The notes below the pieces were generated by a model, which made no database searches, was not told the DNA's origin, and worked only from the letters and a program-made list of their open reading frames with translations. A stretch of DNA of 64,000 nt, from contig NZ_FQXQ01000001.1 of the NCBI RefSeq assembly GCF_900130035.1, positions 744,001-808,000 of the forward strand, in the 5' to 3' direction. The position numbers were made by a program, and so were the translations under genes. Within the stretch, counting starts at the first letter, position 1. The number at the start of each line of letters is the position of its first letter. Shown here piece by piece: positions 47,136 through 54,759 of this stretch. The stretch comes from Wenyingzhuangia marina (GTDB taxonomy: Bacteria > Bacteroidota > Bacteroidia > Flavobacteriales > Flavobacteriaceae).

Positions 47136-47217
47136 GCCTAGGTGGCGGAATTGGTAGACGCGCTGGATTCAAAATCCAGTTTCTTCGGAAGTGCGGGTTC
47201 GATTCCCGCCCTAGGTA
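47136..47217 (+). tRNA. tRNA-Leu (CAA)
   Basis: The 82-nt tRNA folds with a seven-pair acceptor stem (first pair G-U), an anticodon stem CTGGA/TCCAG and loop TTCAAAA giving anticodon CAA. It has the long variable arm of class II tRNAs, a T-arm GCGGGTTCGATTCCCGC, and discriminator A. CCA is not encoded. The T-arm to 3' end (from 47201) is duplicated at 54741-54759, so this gene is the integration site of a mobile element and remains intact. Confidence 0.97.
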
Positions 47218-47219
47218 CA
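47201..47219 (+). repeat. Left attachment site (attL core, within tRNA-Leu)
   Basis: GATTCCCGCCCTAGGTACA is repeated exactly at 54741-54759. The bases just outside differ (C versus T before, T versus A after), so the shared core is 19 bp. Confidence 0.9.
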
Positions 47220-47267: not shown

Positions 47268-47278
47268 TTTTTTATAAT

Positions 47279-47297
47279 CCCCACATGTTCCCCACAT
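47279..47297 (+). repeat. CCCCACAT pair, left cluster (candidate integrase arm sites)
   Basis: CCCCACAT starts at 47279 and again at 47290, exactly 11 bp apart. The second copy continues TTTGCA, much like the last copy of the right cluster (TTTGTA). The pair is about 60 bp inside the left att core. Confidence 0.7.
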
Positions 47298-47368
47298 TTG
47301 CAAGACTAACTATCTATTATTTACAACGTGTGCATAAGTATTGCCTTAAATGATTTTACTTTTGTTTT

Positions 47369-47650
47369 ATGGGATTGGATATAAAAATAGTGGGTTTAGA
47401 AGACGTGTATAATCAAGATGTTTATGATTATTATGATAGTTTAGCGGGTACTTTAAATCTAATTTATTCTAACGCATACCCTAAAGAAATAGATTATCAC
47501 TATAAAAAATTAGATTTTACTTTGGTTGTAAGTGCTAATTTAAAAGGTAGATGTTTTGATTTTGTTAGAATAGATGGAGTTTACAATAAGCATAAACATA
47601 TTGAAGCTATGCAAAACGATAAAGTAAGATTGTTTTTTAAAGCGGTATAA
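47369..47650 (+). CDS. Hypothetical 93-residue protein of the element
   Basis: I do not recognise this protein. It is small, rich in Tyr, Asp, Lys and Val, has no signal peptide, TM helix or cysteine cluster except one Cys in KGRCFDFVRIDGVY, and no known motif. It is the only plus-strand gene of the element, directly next to the left arm sites. That position is often used by recombination directionality or anti-restriction/regulatory genes, but no function can be assigned. A TACTTTTG -7-like box lies only 4 bp before the ATG. Confidence 0.55.
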   Translation: MGLDIKIVGLEDVYNQDVYDYYDSLAGTLNLIYSNAYPKEIDYHYKKLDFTLVVSANLKGRCFDFVRIDGVYNKHKHIEAMQNDKVRLFFKAV

Positions 47651-48054
47651 TTAATATTTATAATAAGTGTTAAGTTTTGTGAAGTTTTAACTTTCTAAAT
47701 TTATAACCTAAAATAACCTCAGCAACTTATTTTAGGTTTAACAGATAAAATGAATAGTTTTCAATGTCAGGTTTTAACAGGTTCTTTGTTGTTTACCCGC
47801 ACGTTGTGACCCCTAAAAAATCTTTGACTTTATGTTTAAGTAATAAATTAGTTTTCTTACACTATAAAAAGGTTATATCTCTTTTTTTACCGTTTCTAAA
47901 ACAATTAACATTCTTTTACTGGCTCGAAAACAATTGAGTGTTCTTTTTTACCGTGCGAAAAACAATTAAATATTTTCTCTTTTACCGTTTAAAAAACAAT
48001 ACTTTAAAATTGAAAAAATATTGATTATTCAATTTTGAATAGAAAACTAACTAA
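47651..48054. other. 404-bp non-coding region of the element with repeat array
   Basis: The left part has no clear ORF but contains a GC-rich spot (TTACCCGCACGTTGTGACCCC, 47799-47819) that stands out in AT-rich DNA. The right part holds the four-copy repeat array described separately. The region separates the small plus-strand ORF from the 3' end of the RM gene. Confidence 0.5.
47885..48001 (+). repeat. Four iteron-like direct repeats
   Basis: Copies start at 47885, 47914, 47946 and 47980 (spacing 29, 32 and 34 bp). Each is 22 bp: TTTTACCGT, four variable bases, then AAAACAATT. Copy 2 has TTTTACTGG at the first part and copy 4 ends AATA. In all four the distance between the ACNG and CAAT parts is the same. 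They may bind Rep, integrase or another element protein. Confidence 0.7.
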
Positions 48055-51000
48055 TTAACTATTTTCCACAATGGCAATTTCTTCATCTGTTAGATTGTAT
48101 AGTTGGTAAACCATAGTATCTATTTCTTTATCTGTTTGGTTAATTTGGTTTTGTAAATCTTGTGCCTTTTGTTTGTTTTCTTCAAACAGGTCTAGCCATT
48201 CAAATTCATCTTTTTTAGTTAAAACGGGTACTTCATATAACCCTGCTTTTAAAAGTTCTTTATTGTTGCTCTTAATAGCTTTGTTTAGTTCTTTTATAAA
48301 GTCTCCAAATTCTAACTCATGCCAGTTTTGCAGTTTTTTTGATGGTTTTTGTAAAAGAAATAATTTACATAGGTAGTTTTGAAATTTATTTAGATGTTTT
48401 GAATAGATGGTGTTGTGTTCTATTGAATTGTTTACTTCTTTTATTAATTCATTGTCTTTTTCAATGATTATAGGTATTTGACTAATGTAATCTGATTTGT
48501 ATAGAAAGTAACCACCATTTATCATGCTACTTGTATTCTTCATGTAAAAATCAGTTAGTTTTGAGTTTAAAATACCTAATATTTGAATTTTTGAAATGTC
48601 TTTCTTTATTTCAATACCATATACATTTTGATTAAAATAATTAGCTTCTAGTGCTAAGGTAAATGATGGTGATATTGAGGTATGCGATGTAATAATTTTG
48701 TCTGCTTCTAAAAATCTCATATCTCTTGCTCTGTGAAAACCATACCATTCATTAATGTTGGTTTTGTACTTTTTTCTTAACTCAATTAAAAAAGTTCTGT
48801 ATGTATTTAAATATTCATAAGCTAAAGGGAAGCGTTTGTTTAATTCATCTAGGTCTAAAATATTTTGTTCATGATTAACTAAATGATAAGGGTAAATTAT
48901 TATATAATCATTCGTAGGCGGTGCATATCTTTTAATATTGTTTCCTTTTGTGATTTTTCTTGTTATTTCTTTCTCTATGTAAAATATTTTCCCTTCAAAT
49001 TCACTCTTTACTAAGTAGCTGTTTGTTAATTCTTCAATAACTTCAAGATAGTAGATTTTATCACTTCCTGGAATTACTCCTTGAGATATGTTTAATGAAA
49101 TATCTAATAGTTTTTTATGTTGCCTTAGTTTCTTTAATAATTTTAATTCATTTTCATTTTTAAACTCCCAATTATCAAGATTCTGATATTTTGTTTTTAT
49201 AAAATCATTATCATCTAATATATTTAAATTCTCAGCTATATAGTGAGCTTTCTTGTTTTTGTATTCTTTATATAAAACATACTTTTGAGCTTTTTTTTCT
49301 ATAAAAAATATCCCAGTATAAGTTGTAGCTCCTTCAAAAATATCAATATCAGAAAAAGATATTATTTTTTTCAAATACTGGTTAGTTTTAAAAAAAAGTC
49401 TTAATCCTTTTCCAAAATCAGTTATGATAAACCTATGAGGTTGTATATATGCCATCAAGCCTGATTGTTTTAATAGCTTTACTCCAAGTTCGTTAAACAA
49501 AACGTATAAGTCAAATTTTCCAGTGGATGAAACATAATTTTGTTCAAAATAATCAATATTGTTTTTTTCTAAATTTTGAACTCTAACATAAGGCGGATTC
49601 CCAATAATCACATCAAAACCACCCTTTGCAAATACTTTAGGAAATTGAGTTTCCCAGTTAAAAGCCTTATTACCTGCTACAGATTTGTTATCTATTAAGG
49701 AATTACCACATTTAATATTAGAACTTAAATCGTTTAACTTTCTGCGGGGTTGTGCGGTACGTAACCATAAAGATAGTTTTGCAATTTCTACAGATTCTTC
49801 GTTTAAATCTACTCCGTAAATATTGTTTTCTAGTATGGTAGTCTCTATATCGGGGAATATAAAACCACCTCCTAAAATTTTAGTCTTTAGTTCATCAATA
49901 TAATTATGTTCTTTAATTAAAAAATCTAAAGCTTGGTTTAAAAACGCACCACTCCCACAGGCGGGGTCGCAAATGGTTAATTGTAGTAACCAATCTCTAT
50001 AAATATCTAATATAGATACTAGGTTTTCAATCGTGCTTTTGTTTCTACCTTTACGACCTTTAAAATATTCATCTTCTTTAAAACCTAATTCGTTTTTCTT
50101 TTCGGTACATAGTTTACCAATGGTGTTTTCTACTATGTATTTGGTAATGTATTTGGGTGTGTAAAAAACACCGTCTTTTTTTCTCTTACTTTTTTGTTTG
50201 TCAAATTCACCTCCTTGAATTTCTGCGTTAACGCTTTCTATTTCGTTTAAAGAGTTTTCAAAAATATGCCCTAGTATGTTAACGTCTACTTGACTTTCAA
50301 AATCATAAGCGGCTAATTTTTTAGTGTGTTTAAAAAGTAGTTCGCTATCTATTTCTAAATTATCTAAAACAAGGTCTTGTTTAAATAAACCACCGTTATA
50401 AGCGTAAATTTCTGCCCTTGCGGTTGTACCCTTTCTACCAGTATCTAAAAAGTTAAAATATTGCTTAAAAAGGTCGTATAATGGTCTTTCGTCTCCAAAA
50501 TCTATATCGGCTTTCCACTTGTCTAATATTTGTTGTGTACTGTTAGGGGGTAATAAACCCCTATCTTCTGCAAAAAATATAAATAGATACCTATCAATTA
50601 ACTTTTGAGACTTTTGAAATAAAGTAAGTTTTACGTTTTTTTCTAGTTGTAAAAGTTCTGTTTTGGCTTCTATATCATTTTCATCAATAACAGGACTATT
50701 GCTTTTTAGTTGTTTGGCATTACGTTTTACTAAATCTCTGTATAGTTCACGTTTAAAGAGTGAATAATCTTTATAAAATTGATTGGTAATTTGTTCTTCT
50801 ATTACTATGGAAGCTTCTTTTATTTGTAAAGGAACGTTGTTAAGTAAATTATCTTTGTGTAGGCATAAATACAATAATTCAAAACGGTCTTTGCTTAGTT
50901 CAAATAAATTAAATTCTTCAAACTCTGTGGCATCATTAATATAAAAACGTAGCTTTTCGTAGTTAGATGTAACCACATAAATACACTCTTTTTGGTTAAC

Positions 51001-51366
51001 CTTATAATCAAAAGCCTGTTTACGTATGCTTTCTAAATCCTTAGTCTTTGTGCTTTTTAATTCTATAACTGCAATAGCATTGTTGTTGCTTAGTATTGCC
51101 CCGTCTGCCTTTCTTGAATTGTTTTGATTTTTATATTCAGCAACTAAATTAAAATCGGCATTAGGTTTTAGAGTATAGTCTAAAATATTAACAAACAAAT
51201 CTGTTAAAAAGATCCCTTGATATTCTTCTTCTTTAGATTTTCTAATGTTATCTTGAATAGTAGGGTTTAAAAAGTGTTTAACGTACTTTTTATAAGCTTT
51301 TTCTACTTTAGACGTATCTAACTGGTTAATATGATTTTTAAGTACAGATTTTTGATATAGTGCCAT
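48055..51366 (-). CDS. Type IIG restriction-modification enzyme (Eco57I-like)
   Basis: Single-chain restriction endonuclease and N6-adenine methyltransferase of 1103 residues. The N-terminal PD-(D/E)XK nuclease shows ADGAILSNNNAIAVIELKSTKTK (about 95-115), with catalytic Asp and ExK. A helical connector precedes the methyltransferase core, with SAM motif I DPACGSGAFLNQ (about 475) and catalytic motif IV NPPYVRV (about 615). The last 350 residues are a TaqI-C-like target-recognition domain (for example NKIYYLEV, RYAPPTNDYIIIYPYH), which defines the specificity. No separate methylase gene is needed. It is the cargo of the element and probably gives phage defence or element maintenance. Confidence 0.92.
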   Translation of the reverse strand: MALYQKSVLKNHINQLDTSKVEKAYKKYVKHFLNPTIQDNIRKSKEEEYQGIFLTDLFVNILDYTLKPNADFNLVAEYKNQNNSRKADGAILSNNNAIAVIELKSTKTKDLESIRKQAFDYKVNQKECIYVVTSNYEKLRFYINDATEFEEFNLFELSKDRFELLYLCLHKDNLLNNVPLQIKEASIVIEEQITNQFYKDYSLFKRELYRDLVKRNAKQLKSNSPVIDENDIEAKTELLQLEKNVKLTLFQKSQKLIDRYLFIFFAEDRGLLPPNSTQQILDKWKADIDFGDERPLYDLFKQYFNFLDTGRKGTTARAEIYAYNGGLFKQDLVLDNLEIDSELLFKHTKKLAAYDFESQVDVNILGHIFENSLNEIESVNAEIQGGEFDKQKSKRKKDGVFYTPKYITKYIVENTIGKLCTEKKNELGFKEDEYFKGRKGRNKSTIENLVSILDIYRDWLLQLTICDPACGSGAFLNQALDFLIKEHNYIDELKTKILGGGFIFPDIETTILENNIYGVDLNEESVEIAKLSLWLRTAQPRRKLNDLSSNIKCGNSLIDNKSVAGNKAFNWETQFPKVFAKGGFDVIIGNPPYVRVQNLEKNNIDYFEQNYVSSTGKFDLYVLFNELGVKLLKQSGLMAYIQPHRFIITDFGKGLRLFFKTNQYLKKIISFSDIDIFEGATTYTGIFFIEKKAQKYVLYKEYKNKKAHYIAENLNILDDNDFIKTKYQNLDNWEFKNENELKLLKKLRQHKKLLDISLNISQGVIPGSDKIYYLEVIEELTNSYLVKSEFEGKIFYIEKEITRKITKGNNIKRYAPPTNDYIIIYPYHLVNHEQNILDLDELNKRFPLAYEYLNTYRTFLIELRKKYKTNINEWYGFHRARDMRFLEADKIITSHTSISPSFTLALEANYFNQNVYGIEIKKDISKIQILGILNSKLTDFYMKNTSSMINGGYFLYKSDYISQIPIIIEKDNELIKEVNNSIEHNTIYSKHLNKFQNYLCKLFLLQKPSKKLQNWHELEFGDFIKELNKAIKSNNKELLKAGLYEVPVLTKKDEFEWLDLFEENKQKAQDLQNQINQTDKEIDTMVYQLYNLTDEEIAIVENS

Positions 51367-51425
51367 TCTTTACAAAGTCCAATTTTATTAATGAACTATA
51401 AATATATAGAATTGTATAGCTAGTT

Positions 51426-52421
51426 TTAACTACTGATTGAGAATAAATTTTTAGTATTTTCTAGGAGTGATTTAAAGGTAAGGTTTAACTCTATATTAGA
51501 ACTGTTAAATATTACCCTTTTTTTATTGTTAGGGGGTCGGTTAATGATTACCCCTTTTTTTAATAAATCGTTTCTTAATTGTAGATGTAAATTGTTAGAA
51601 TTGTGAATGATAAAATCTTTTAATCTTTTTTTGTGTTCGTCTCTTTTATTGGGTTTTAAAGTATCTATCCAGTAAGTTATATTTGAATAATTGTTTAGGT
51701 TTTTTATTTGTGGTTTGCTTAGTCCTTTTTTGCTAATGGTTTTATCGTAGTACACCACCTCGTCAAAACGCATTATAAGTAGTTTTAAGGCTTTATTTAA
51801 TGTTGAGGTGTTCACGTCTGCAAAAGTTACAATACCAGTTCTATTAAACTCTATTGATTTCTTAAAACCTGTTTCTATTCTTAATGTATGTTTTTCCATA
51901 TTGTACTGATATGATTTGTTGTAAATTTTTATTCTGTAATTATTGTGTTCTACTTGTCCGTAATTTCTACTATATTTAAATTCAAAAGATTTTCCAGTAT
52001 GATACAATAGTCCTTTTATGAATTGTTTAGGGCAAAATAAAGGATTCGTATTAATTCCAAATTCTATGTTTTGAAAAGTCATTTGTTGAGGTTCGCAAAA
52101 TAATAACTCACATAAGTGTTTTCTTACTTCTAAAATGTTTTCTAAAGTAAACATATTACCATTATAGCCTTTGTAATTGTTGGGGTTATAGTTTGGTGCT
52201 TTTATTTCTTTTAAAGAGTTAAAAAGCTTGTGTATGCTACCTGTAAATAAAACTATTCCAGTATCATAAATAATAATATTACAGAAATGATGGATTGCTA
52301 CTGTTTTGGGTGAGCAATCACCATTTTTTTCTGAAACCTCAACTCTAAAATCAAATAAAGAATTGTTTTTTATTTTGTCTATGTTGGGGTTGTTGATTAA
52401 TATTTTAACGTAGTCAATCAA
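51426..52421 (-). CDS. Putative replication initiation protein of the element
   Basis: Protein of 331 residues starting MIDYVKILI. Motif-like segments are HHFCNIIIYDTGIVLF, QNIEFGINTN, NNYRIKIYNKSYQYNMEKHTLRIETGFKKSIEF, and a basic C-terminal helical part with KRDEHKKRLKDFI. The KIYNKS...LRIE pattern resembles rolling-circle replication initiators of filamentous-phage and small-plasmid type, where the Tyr/Lys of this stretch would be active. Similarity is by eye only. It lies upstream of the RM gene and next to an inverted-repeat region that could be the origin. It could instead be a DNA-binding protein of another family. Confidence 0.5.
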   Translation of the reverse strand: MIDYVKILINNPNIDKIKNNSLFDFRVEVSEKNGDCSPKTVAIHHFCNIIIYDTGIVLFTGSIHKLFNSLKEIKAPNYNPNNYKGYNGNMFTLENILEVRKHLCELLFCEPQQMTFQNIEFGINTNPLFCPKQFIKGLLYHTGKSFEFKYSRNYGQVEHNNYRIKIYNKSYQYNMEKHTLRIETGFKKSIEFNRTGIVTFADVNTSTLNKALKLLIMRFDEVVYYDKTISKKGLSKPQIKNLNNYSNITYWIDTLKPNKRDEHKKRLKDFIIHNSNNLHLQLRNDLLKKGVIINRPPNNKKRVIFNSSNIELNLTFKSLLENTKNLFSISS

Positions 52422-52671
52422 ATATATAAGGTTGATAAAGAAATAATATACTAAGTGTATTTGTTTTATATTACTATTCTAAAACACCATAAAACAGTTG
52501 ATTAAGCGTTGTTTATAAGTGTAAAGAATAGTAATGTTAAAACGTGTTTGTTTTCTCAGATATTAAAACAACTTTTTAAATAGGTTGTTTTATCTGTTTA
52601 AATACGGTTTGTTATAAGACGTTTTAAAAAACGTTGCTTATATCAATAAAATTTGGATGTATTAAGCCTAA
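52422..52671. other. Palindrome-rich gap between Rep-like and HTH genes
   Basis: Contains TAAAACAAC (52564-52572) facing GTTGTTTTA (52584-52592), and a second hairpin at 52613-52642 with arms TATAAG...CTTATA around CGTTTT-AA-AAAACG. Also present are AAACAGTTGATTAAGCGTTGTTT-like sequences further left. No ORF. Suits a replication origin or regulatory region. Confidence 0.45.
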
Positions 52672-52956
52672 TTATTGAAGTTTAATAATAGATTTCATAA
52701 TGTCCGAACGCTTATAGTAAACACGACCTTGAATACCAAAAGGAATTAATTTTCCTTGTTTCTGCCAATTATGTAAAGTTGAGAGGTTGACTTTTAGGAA
52801 TTGAGAAGTTTCTTCTCTAGTCATTAGTTCTTCGGGTTCTTGTAATTGCTTTTTAAATTCTGAAAGGTGTTCTTTTACACCGTCTAAAATAGTTTGTTGT
52901 AACTGCTCTGGAGTTACTGAAATGAATTGGATTTGTTTCATGTAATTTTGTTCCAT
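52672..52956 (-). CDS. MerR/excisionase-like helix-turn-helix protein
   Basis: DNA-binding protein of 94 residues. The C-terminal half is a HTH_17 domain: MTREETSQFLKVNLSTLHNWQKQGKLIPFGIQGRVYYKRSDIMKSI, a pattern shared by excisionases and element-encoded regulators in Bacteroidota. The N-terminal half (TPEQLQQTILDGVKEHLSEFKKQL) is a helix probably used in dimerisation. A second ATG at 52941 (MKQIQF) is an alternative start. It lies 257 bp downstream of the integrase gene on the same strand and may control excision or Rep expression. Confidence 0.8.
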   Translation of the reverse strand: MEQNYMKQIQFISVTPEQLQQTILDGVKEHLSEFKKQLQEPEELMTREETSQFLKVNLSTLHNWQKQGKLIPFGIQGRVYYKRSDIMKSIIKLQ

Positions 52957-53213
52957 GTAATAAAAATTTAAATTATTATTATGGCAAATCCTTACGTCTG
53001 TTTCCTAAATTATTTTAACTTTGTGGTTCTCAAGACACAAGTTAAAGGGCATTAGATTTACTTAGGTAAAGATTTTGCCTTTTTTGATTTATACAAATTT
53101 AATACTATCTAAAATTCCCTAGATTATGAAACGTTTAAACTTATTAACAAATCCAATTTGTTGTTGATAAAACTTATAAATGTATGCAAAACGGTTTATT
53201 GCTATAGTTTGCT

Positions 53214-54566
53214 TTATTGATTTTCTACTTTTTTTAATACAGTCATTTTTGGTTTATCATTAGGTTTTAATTCTTCCTTTATTTTTAGCAATTGATTGTA
53301 TTCGTTTCTCAATTTTTTAACCTGTGATAGTTTTCTACTTCTATCTTGATTTACATAAATATTTACAGTTTCTTCTTTGCTGTGTCCTGTAATGTGTTTT
53401 ACTTTAGCTCCAAACACTTGGTAATAATGTGTCGTAGCTGTTTTTCTTAACGTGTGTGATGTTATTAATTGCCATTTAGGGTAAACTCCCTCTATGTTGC
53501 GTTTGCGTTTTTTACCGTCTATTTCTATCGTTTTAGAAATTGCTCCTTTTGTAGGTCTATCGATTTCAGCCATTTTACAAATTTCTTTTAGGTACTCGTT
53601 AAAGCGTTGGTCTGAAATAGGTGTAGGTAAACCGTCTTTTATTATTTCTTCAATAACCTCATCAATTGGTATTACTATTTCTTTTGTGTTTTGAGATTTT
53701 TTTTGAGTAAAAACAAAACATTTTGTTAAGTTATGGTCTAAATCAGGGTGATATTGTATATTATATTCAGTTAAAGGAAGTAAATCACTAATTCTTTGAG
53801 CTACTTGTAAGCCTAGTAAAAACCATTTACGAGTGTTTAAAAGTCTTTCGTTTGTGATTTCTAAGTTTTCAATTCTTAGTATTTCATCATGTTCCAGTAC
53901 TATAGTTTTAGAGCTTCTTGTTTTAATTCTTTTAATATAGTCTAACTCTTGGGATACTGGTATTTTATAACGTCTTGCATGCCTGCCAATAGCAATTAAA
54001 TCATCTGAATATTTTTTTGCTGTATTATGACCATATTTTTCTTTGTTTAATAACCAATGATTAAAATTATCATAAAAGAATTGGTCTATCTCAACAATTT
54101 TATAAACGTGGTTTTTTTGATATTTTTTAAAAACCTTGAATAAGGTGTTTAATTGTCTTATTCTGTTTATTGATAATCCTTTTTCACCTATGCTGTTTTC
54201 AAATAAATTTGGATTATCAATTATATATTTAATCCAGTACTCAATACTTGCATTTTGTTCTTTTTCTTCTTTGTTGGTAAACTTGTTGTATGTGGTTTCT
54301 AGCCATCTTTTAGACGGTTCTAGTCCATCTGTAGTAATGTTGTTGAGGTTTTCTTGAATATGGCTAACAATAGCGTCTAATATGTTTTTCAATTGTTTTA
54401 GTTCGGCTGTGGTTTCTTTGGGTCTTTTGGTTTTAATATTCCATTTTTTACCGTCTATTGTTAAGCCTGTAGAAATTGTATAATCATGTTTTCTACCACT
54501 TCTTAATCTAATGTAGATTGTTGAGGTTTGTCCTTTGGTTCTAATTATAGGTGAAATGCTAGCCAT
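53214..54566 (-). CDS. Tyrosine recombinase (phage-type integrase)
   Basis: Site-specific recombinase of 450 residues for integration at tRNA-Leu. N-terminal arm-binding region and SAM-like core-binding region (about 80-230) precede the catalytic domain. Catalytic residues are visible: Arg in QVAQRISDLLPL, Lys in FTQKKSQ, HTLRK with the HxxR pair, the second His in HITGHSKEE and nucleophile Tyr in NIYVN. I choose the ATG at 54566 (MASISPIIR); the longer frame from 54629 would run through the CCCCACAT repeats. It resembles the CTnDOT/flavobacterial integrase group and appears functional. Confidence 0.93.
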   Translation of the reverse strand: MASISPIIRTKGQTSTIYIRLRSGRKHDYTISTGLTIDGKKWNIKTKRPKETTAELKQLKNILDAIVSHIQENLNNITTDGLEPSKRWLETTYNKFTNKEEKEQNASIEYWIKYIIDNPNLFENSIGEKGLSINRIRQLNTLFKVFKKYQKNHVYKIVEIDQFFYDNFNHWLLNKEKYGHNTAKKYSDDLIAIGRHARRYKIPVSQELDYIKRIKTRSSKTIVLEHDEILRIENLEITNERLLNTRKWFLLGLQVAQRISDLLPLTEYNIQYHPDLDHNLTKCFVFTQKKSQNTKEIVIPIDEVIEEIIKDGLPTPISDQRFNEYLKEICKMAEIDRPTKGAISKTIEIDGKKRKRNIEGVYPKWQLITSHTLRKTATTHYYQVFGAKVKHITGHSKEETVNIYVNQDRSRKLSQVKKLRNEYNQLLKIKEELKPNDKPKMTVLKKVENQ

Positions 54567-54601
54567 GATTATCTGTTTTAGAGTTGTAAAGATATAACTA
54601 T

Positions 54602-54631
54602 CCCCACATTTTCCCCACATAATCCCCACAT
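54602..54631 (+). repeat. CCCCACAT triplet, right cluster (candidate integrase arm sites)
   Basis: CCCCACAT starts at 54602, 54613 and 54624, each exactly 11 bp apart, all on the plus strand like the left pair. It lies 35 bp upstream of the integrase ATG and 110 bp inside the right att core, so it may also affect int expression. Confidence 0.7.
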
Positions 54632-54740
54632 TTGTACAATTTCATTAAATGCTATTAAATTAAAAACACTCTGTATGTGTTGTATATATTGGGTTTTTCA
54701 GTTTTTTGGTTTTTTGAGATTGTTTAAAAATTAGTTTGGT

Positions 54741-54759
54741 GATTCCCGCCCTAGGTACA
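54741..54759 (+). repeat. Right attachment site (attR core)
   Basis: GATTCCCGCCCTAGGTACA, identical to 47201-47219 in tRNA-Leu. No other tRNA sequence precedes it, so it is the duplicated target end left by integration. Confidence 0.9.

Follow-up and report, generated by a model that had tools for sequence, protein, structure and literature searches.

The DNA analyzed here, a window of 64,000 nucleotides from Wenyingzhuangia marina, carries a 7,540-bp element inserted at the 3′ end of a tRNA-Leu(CAA) gene (47136..47218, + strand, as placed by ARAGORN), bounded by a 19-bp core repeat, GATTCCCGCCCTAGGTACA. The left core (47201..47219, + strand) closes the tRNA gene and recurs as the right core (54741..54759, + strand), and the two form the longest exact repeat between both ends. 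The sister genome G228 provides the empty site: there the tRNA gene, the insertion target, is joined straight to the right flank at the 19-bp core, from which it follows that 7,540 bp are inserted in the window. Next to the right end, on the − strand, lies a tyrosine integrase of 450 amino acids (53214..54566) with arm-binding, core-binding and catalytic domains (PF17293, PF13102 and PF00589, all above cut-off), followed on the same strand by an HTH_17 protein (52672..52956; PF12728 above cut-off, excisionase-type PHROG) that is likely a directionality factor. The cargo is a type IIG restriction-modification enzyme (48055..51366, − strand), which PADLOC REase_MTase_IIG matches over almost its full length (E 2.3e-269) together with PF07669. 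A 331-residue protein (51426..52421, − strand) and a 93-residue reading frame (47369..47650, + strand) were without a match in Pfam, PHROGs, PADLOC and NCBIfam. Relatives of the former in 24 of 80 related loci, the best 80 of at least 538, possibly mark it as element backbone. Adjoining the end of the restriction-modification gene are four iteron-like 26-bp direct repeats (47883–48003; TTTTTTACCGTTTCTAAAACAATTAA-like, at least 76% alike, spaced 29–34 bp). In a megablast search against phage records the element found no match, and a scan of viral contigs with the window integrase alone gave two pattern matches, neither of them a relative.

Within the window the octamer CCCCACAT occurs five times, with starts at 47279, 47290, 54602, 54613 and 54624, on the + strand throughout and with no further copies. 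A preliminary description had placed these copies in two clusters with an 11-bp step and a single orientation, and all positions were confirmed. Dinucleotide shuffling yields 0.75 copies on average and four at most, and none of 100 shuffles reached five. The preliminary proposal to count the octamer elsewhere in the genome was followed with the 11-bp phased pair CCCCACATNNNCCCCACAT rather than with the single octamer: the pair has three occurrences in 3.24 Mb, all within the two clusters and none outside them, and the reversed-pattern control gave 0. Among 299 genomes of the same family, the own genome counted, 7 contain the pair, at 11 places, with a reversed-pattern control of 0 among the matches listed. 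In genomes G042 and G153 both clusters share one orientation and lie near a tRNA gene, before an integrase that is about 30% identical to that of the window.

Both clusters are inside the element, on either side of the core and in one orientation. Read on the integrase strand, the distal cluster (47276..47297, − strand) consists of two 11-bp units, ATGTGGGGATT and ATGTGGGGAAC, and the integrase-side cluster (54599..54631, − strand) of three, ATGTGGGGATT, ATGTGGGGAAA and ATGTGGGGATA. The distances to the core, described beforehand as about 60 and 110 bp, measure 59 bp from the left core to the first octamer at 47279 and 109 bp from 54631 to the right core. Likewise, the integrase-side cluster does lie directly before the integrase, as its start is 36 bp from the ATG (54566).

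For comparison, we sampled 30 integrases from family genomes, the window's included, and 80 from named genomes, the best 80 of at least 538 confirmed. The phasing that the preliminary description suggested looking for beside related integrases was found there, with differing sequence: a lag-11 self-match (8 of 9) within 150 bp before the integrase gene is present in 74 of 79 loci of the best 80 of at least 538, one locus being too short, and in 26 of 30 loci of the family set. Controls gave 4/73 further upstream, 2/80 inside the integrase gene and 7/79 for shuffles. The 110 integrases were reduced to 94 non-redundant loci by removing those with less than 100 bp upstream, proteins below 380 amino acids, repeated proteins and loci without a pair at 7 of 9. 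A register search over these 94 defined the unit as x[TG]GT[TCG]G[AG][CG][AT]AA, and its sequence varies widely among integrases, e.g., TGTGGGGA, TGTTGACTAA, GGTTGGCAAA and ACCGTACAAA.

A second cluster matching the locus's own unit, in the place and orientation of the distal cluster of the window, occurs in 34 of the 77 loci with a pair, in all 34 on the same strand and downstream of the integrase gene, whereas searches with mismatched units found 2, 0 and 1 of 77. It was not found in the other 43, some of which span less than 10 kb of flank. In 31 of these 34 loci the clusters are enclosed from outside by identical sequences of 14 bp or more, although three of the calls are doubtful (L056, L070 and L105); in the other 28 the repeat is 112–150 bp from the integrase-side pair and 31–62 bp from the distal pair. 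In 31 of the 34 loci, ARAGORN identifies a tRNA next to the distal cluster, a tRNA-Leu in 28 of these. Two spacing classes can be discerned. Six loci, mainly Flavobacterium, have the distal arm at 31–36 bp and the integrase-side arm at 112–116 bp and sit at tRNA-Leu(GAG) or tRNA-Arg, and the rest have mostly 45–62 bp and 113–150 bp. The shift of about 20 bp between the classes corresponds to roughly two helical turns.

Judged by their sequence context, the CCCCACAT copies very probably serve the tyrosine integrase of the element as its arm-type sites. The empty site, the layout in relatives and the confinement of the pair to the element support this reading, as do the covariation of repeat and arm domain and the performance of a residue-to-base rule on later loci, both described below.

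The position of the integrase-side cluster also bears on expression of the integrase. TAnnTTTG is the −7 consensus of Bacteroidota, and a possible −7 box one base off it, TATCTTTA, lies at 54587..54594 on the − strand. Imperfect in the window, the box is exact in 63 of 94 loci, where it comes after the array (shuffles averaged 4.4 and never exceeded 11), and the array-to-box gaps peak at 4–6, 15 and 26 bp, i.e., in steps of about 11 bp. Since the array is just upstream of this promoter-like box, autoregulation of the integrase is plausible: the array would extend over the −33 region, so that integrase bound there could block transcription and repress its own gene, a step that we regard as less firm than the arm-type assignment. 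Integrase autoregulation was measured in KplE1, where the attachment region overlaps the int promoter (PMC2951348); KplE1 is tRNA-inserted like the window element, in which autoregulation is presumptive. In six of 94 loci (L049, L077, L085, L092, L093 and L120; control 0/94) an inverted unit copy lies between the array and the integrase gene, near the promoter. One might ask whether the units are an operator of the int promoter and nothing else, without a part in recombination, as their place just upstream of the box, at the preferred distance, would suggest. We consider this quite improbable, because the distal cluster, which keeps its orientation and lies 31–62 bp from the core, is not accompanied by an int promoter.

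Which protein reads the units was approached by covariation over 89 loci, after five of the 94 with a doubtful register (L036, L085, L087, L077 and L027) had been removed. Unit similarity follows the identity of the arm-binding domain (r 0.60, 0/1000 permutations) and only faintly that of the core-binding (r 0.11) and catalytic (r 0.17) domains. The correlation with the arm domain stays at 0.60 as a partial correlation given the other two domains and at 0.59 after removing ten Flavobacterium-type loci. In 3717 column-position tests over the integrase, the top association was residue 9 with base 9 (z 28.6). Forty-four tests exceeded z 6, 38 of them for residues of the arm domain, 2 for the core-binding domain and 4 for the catalytic part. 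The units might instead be sites of the HTH_17 protein, as it is common for small HTH proteins to act at attachment sites and a relative of this one is encoded just downstream of the integrase gene in 71 of 80 loci of the best 80 of at least 538, in 70 of them on the integrase strand. In contrast to the arm domain, however, which on the same 56 loci tracks the unit with r 0.64, the HTH protein barely does so (r 0.10, with 56/1000 permutations as high), and the comparison is similar without one Flavobacterium-type group (0.60 versus 0.09). Binding of the octamer by the HTH protein, as entertained in the preliminary description, thus found no support, and given this covariation we consider it very unlikely, and reject, that the 11-bp units are read by this protein. 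It is hardly credible that the units are repeats arisen by chance in AT-rich DNA or a remnant of common descent. Although lag-11 matches also occur in the controls (4/73 versus 74/79 in relatives), chance is rejected by these counts, by the shuffles and by the confinement of the pair to the element; from one integrase to the next, the unit varies together with the arm domain, and both ends change in concert.

The covariation extends to single residues. Glutamine at residue 9 is accompanied by T at base 9 in 31 of 31 cases, and lysine, leucine, isoleucine or asparagine by A in 27 of 27; arginine at this residue pairs with C (19) or A (12; n = 31) and thus does not fix base 9. Lysine or arginine at residue 30 goes with C at base 8 (45/48), serine at residue 22 with T at base 5 (56/60) and lysine or arginine there with G (10/10), arginine at residue 20 with G at base 6 (67/75) and glutamine there with A (3/3), and arginine at residue 25 with T at base 4 (69/71). 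In general, glutamine prefers adenine, and arginine and lysine prefer guanine. The observed pairings fit such usual preferences on either strand, except R25–T, which has no direct fit. From the covariation we infer that the N-terminal arm-binding domain would read each 11-bp unit, with residues 9, 30, 22, 20 and 25 linked to bases 9, 8, 5, 6 and 4, respectively, and with residues 9 and 30 giving the strongest links.

In a test of independent pairs on a tree built from the integrase minus its arm domain, Q9 changed with T9 in the same direction in 12 of 12 pairs. Support was about 12/13 for K/R30 with C8, about 6/7 for S22 with T5, about 7/10 for R25 with T4 and 6.6/10 for R9 with C9; R20–G6 (4.4/7) and K/R22–G5 (3.9/5) fell short of significance. 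The window integrase, one of the training sequences, agrees with the code at each of the five coded positions of its own unit. The rule was fixed before 59 further loci were fetched, of which 54 yielded a complete integrase together with its upstream DNA; removal of 5 near-training and 5 duplicate proteins left 44. A pair was present in 32 and none in 12, which have more distant arm domains. For base 9 the prediction was right at 29 of the 32, including all 11 cases of Q to T, whereas shuffling bases among loci in 20,000 trials gave a mean of 14.0 and a maximum of 24 of 32. The other bases were correct in 27/30 (base 6), 23/26 (base 5), 16/21 (base 8) and 15/21 (base 4), figures in which the register, picked with the trained profile, may favor conserved positions, chiefly 4 and 6. 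In the viral contigs, a distant and mixed test set (42 of 70 loci) scored before the rule was fixed, Q9 occurred with T in two of the five having a pair. Judged by these sequence comparisons, the code holds inside the integrase group and weakens beyond it.

In the integrase itself, R258 and K290 are invariant and H371, R374, H395 and Y404 are at least 90% conserved over 30 sequences; we take these residues to be the catalytic set R, K, H, R, H, Y. Among known folds, the full integrase model comes closest to lambda integrase bound to core DNA (1z1b), at 13% identity. In the AlphaFold model the arm domain has strands at residues 2–8, 15–23 and 27–37 and a helix at 54–80, with residues 20, 22 and 30 within strands 2 and 3 and residue 9 after strand 1. 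Arm domains of such integrases are known to combine three strands with a helix, but a PDB fold search with the arm domain alone gave no confident match (best E 0.31). Among solved structures searched by sequence, the integrase alone found none at E 0.1 and the arm-domain alignment nothing convincing, whereas the alignment of the whole integrase matched other tyrosine recombinases. The same genome encodes three near-identical tyrosine integrases with a different arm-domain type (L284, L285 and L286, on C4 and C1) that look like a multi-copy mobile element. A lag-11 array is absent before these three, which rules out the array as a feature of every integrase in the genome.

Directly beside the integrase-side arm units, at 54632..54661 on the − strand, lies an AT-rich array phased by 10 bp, AATTTAATAG CATTTAATGA AATTGTACAA, a possible site of the HTH protein. 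Across loci, the stretch upstream of the units has a mean self-match of 0.476 (lag 10) and 0.439 (lag 20); the remaining lags give 0.29–0.37, and control stretches about 0.29. The fitted consensus AATTGAATAA is matched to varying degree, and in 73 of 94 loci the array starts 20, 29–30 or 39–40 bp before the units; a lag-10 match (8 of 9) was found in 37 of 79 loci of the best 80 of at least 538. Similarity of the 10-bp array correlates with the HTH protein (r 0.44, 0/1000; 56 loci) and hardly with the unit (0.02–0.04) or the arm domain (0.07–0.12). Control stretches, however, reach 0.50 (100–140 bp upstream of the units) and 0.23 (50–90 bp) with the HTH protein, and after removal of ten Flavobacterium-type loci the array gives 0.29 (2/1000) against 0.21 and 0.15. 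Because the controls thus reach 0.15–0.50, the HTH protein as reader of the 10-bp array is suggestive only.

The recombination mechanism is of a known kind. In analogy to lambda integrase, integrase protomers sitting on the arms at intervals of one helical turn would bridge to the core, and this arm-core complex would integrate or excise the element. Somewhat less firmly, the HTH protein may bind the adjoining 10-bp array and steer the direction. Lambda integrase, besides being the best fold match, also has arms on both sides of the core, and lambda likewise has five arm sites. In contrast to lambda, at the low identity given above, the window features 11-bp tandem units in one orientation; they are not known to be related in sequence to the lambda P and P′ arm sites. 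From the same host phylum, Bacteroidota, come the CTnDOT and NBU1 tyrosine integrases of Bacteroides in the IntCTnDOT subgroup, which agree with that of the window in domain make-up, including an arm domain at the N terminus. PMC8138268 reports that the CTnDOT integrase binds subterminal arm sites and that CTnDOT lacks the first catalytic arginine, which NBU1 has; with R258, the window integrase resembles NBU1 and differs from CTnDOT. PMC11963761 describes five arm sites in attP for IntS of ICEMlSymR7A, as in the window, although host lineage and arm motif (TGKTGGTATC) differ. It further describes RdfS, a winged-helix directionality factor of which about one molecule is bound per 10 bp next to int and which showed no consensus motif; a directionality factor on the 10-bp array of the window would resemble it.

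A family-wide layout and a residue-to-base code for these integrases were not found in the open literature searched, and subscription work on arm sites was mostly outside its scope, so that parts of the layout or the code may already be in print. To our knowledge, arm-type sites have so far been mapped one integrase at a time. Taking the observations together, we lean slightly toward a joint reading for a large group of Bacteroidota integrases. Its arm domain would use a near-modular code (9–9, 30–8, 20–6, 22–5 and 25–4, residue to base), so that, for an integrase not seen before, the genome alone would disclose both the arm sequence and where the element ends. Arm domain and sites would co-change fast while the catalytic domain lags, keeping the integrases of one cell off each other's sites, and the HTH protein would read the 10-bp array and set the direction. 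For the majority of the integrases examined here, all of one group, arm sites and likely protein contacts can be read from sequence. This would offer a precise way to locate both ends of small mobile elements whose cargo includes defence genes, here that of the type IIG enzyme, and would allow a direct test of how the site specificities of different integrases are kept separate.
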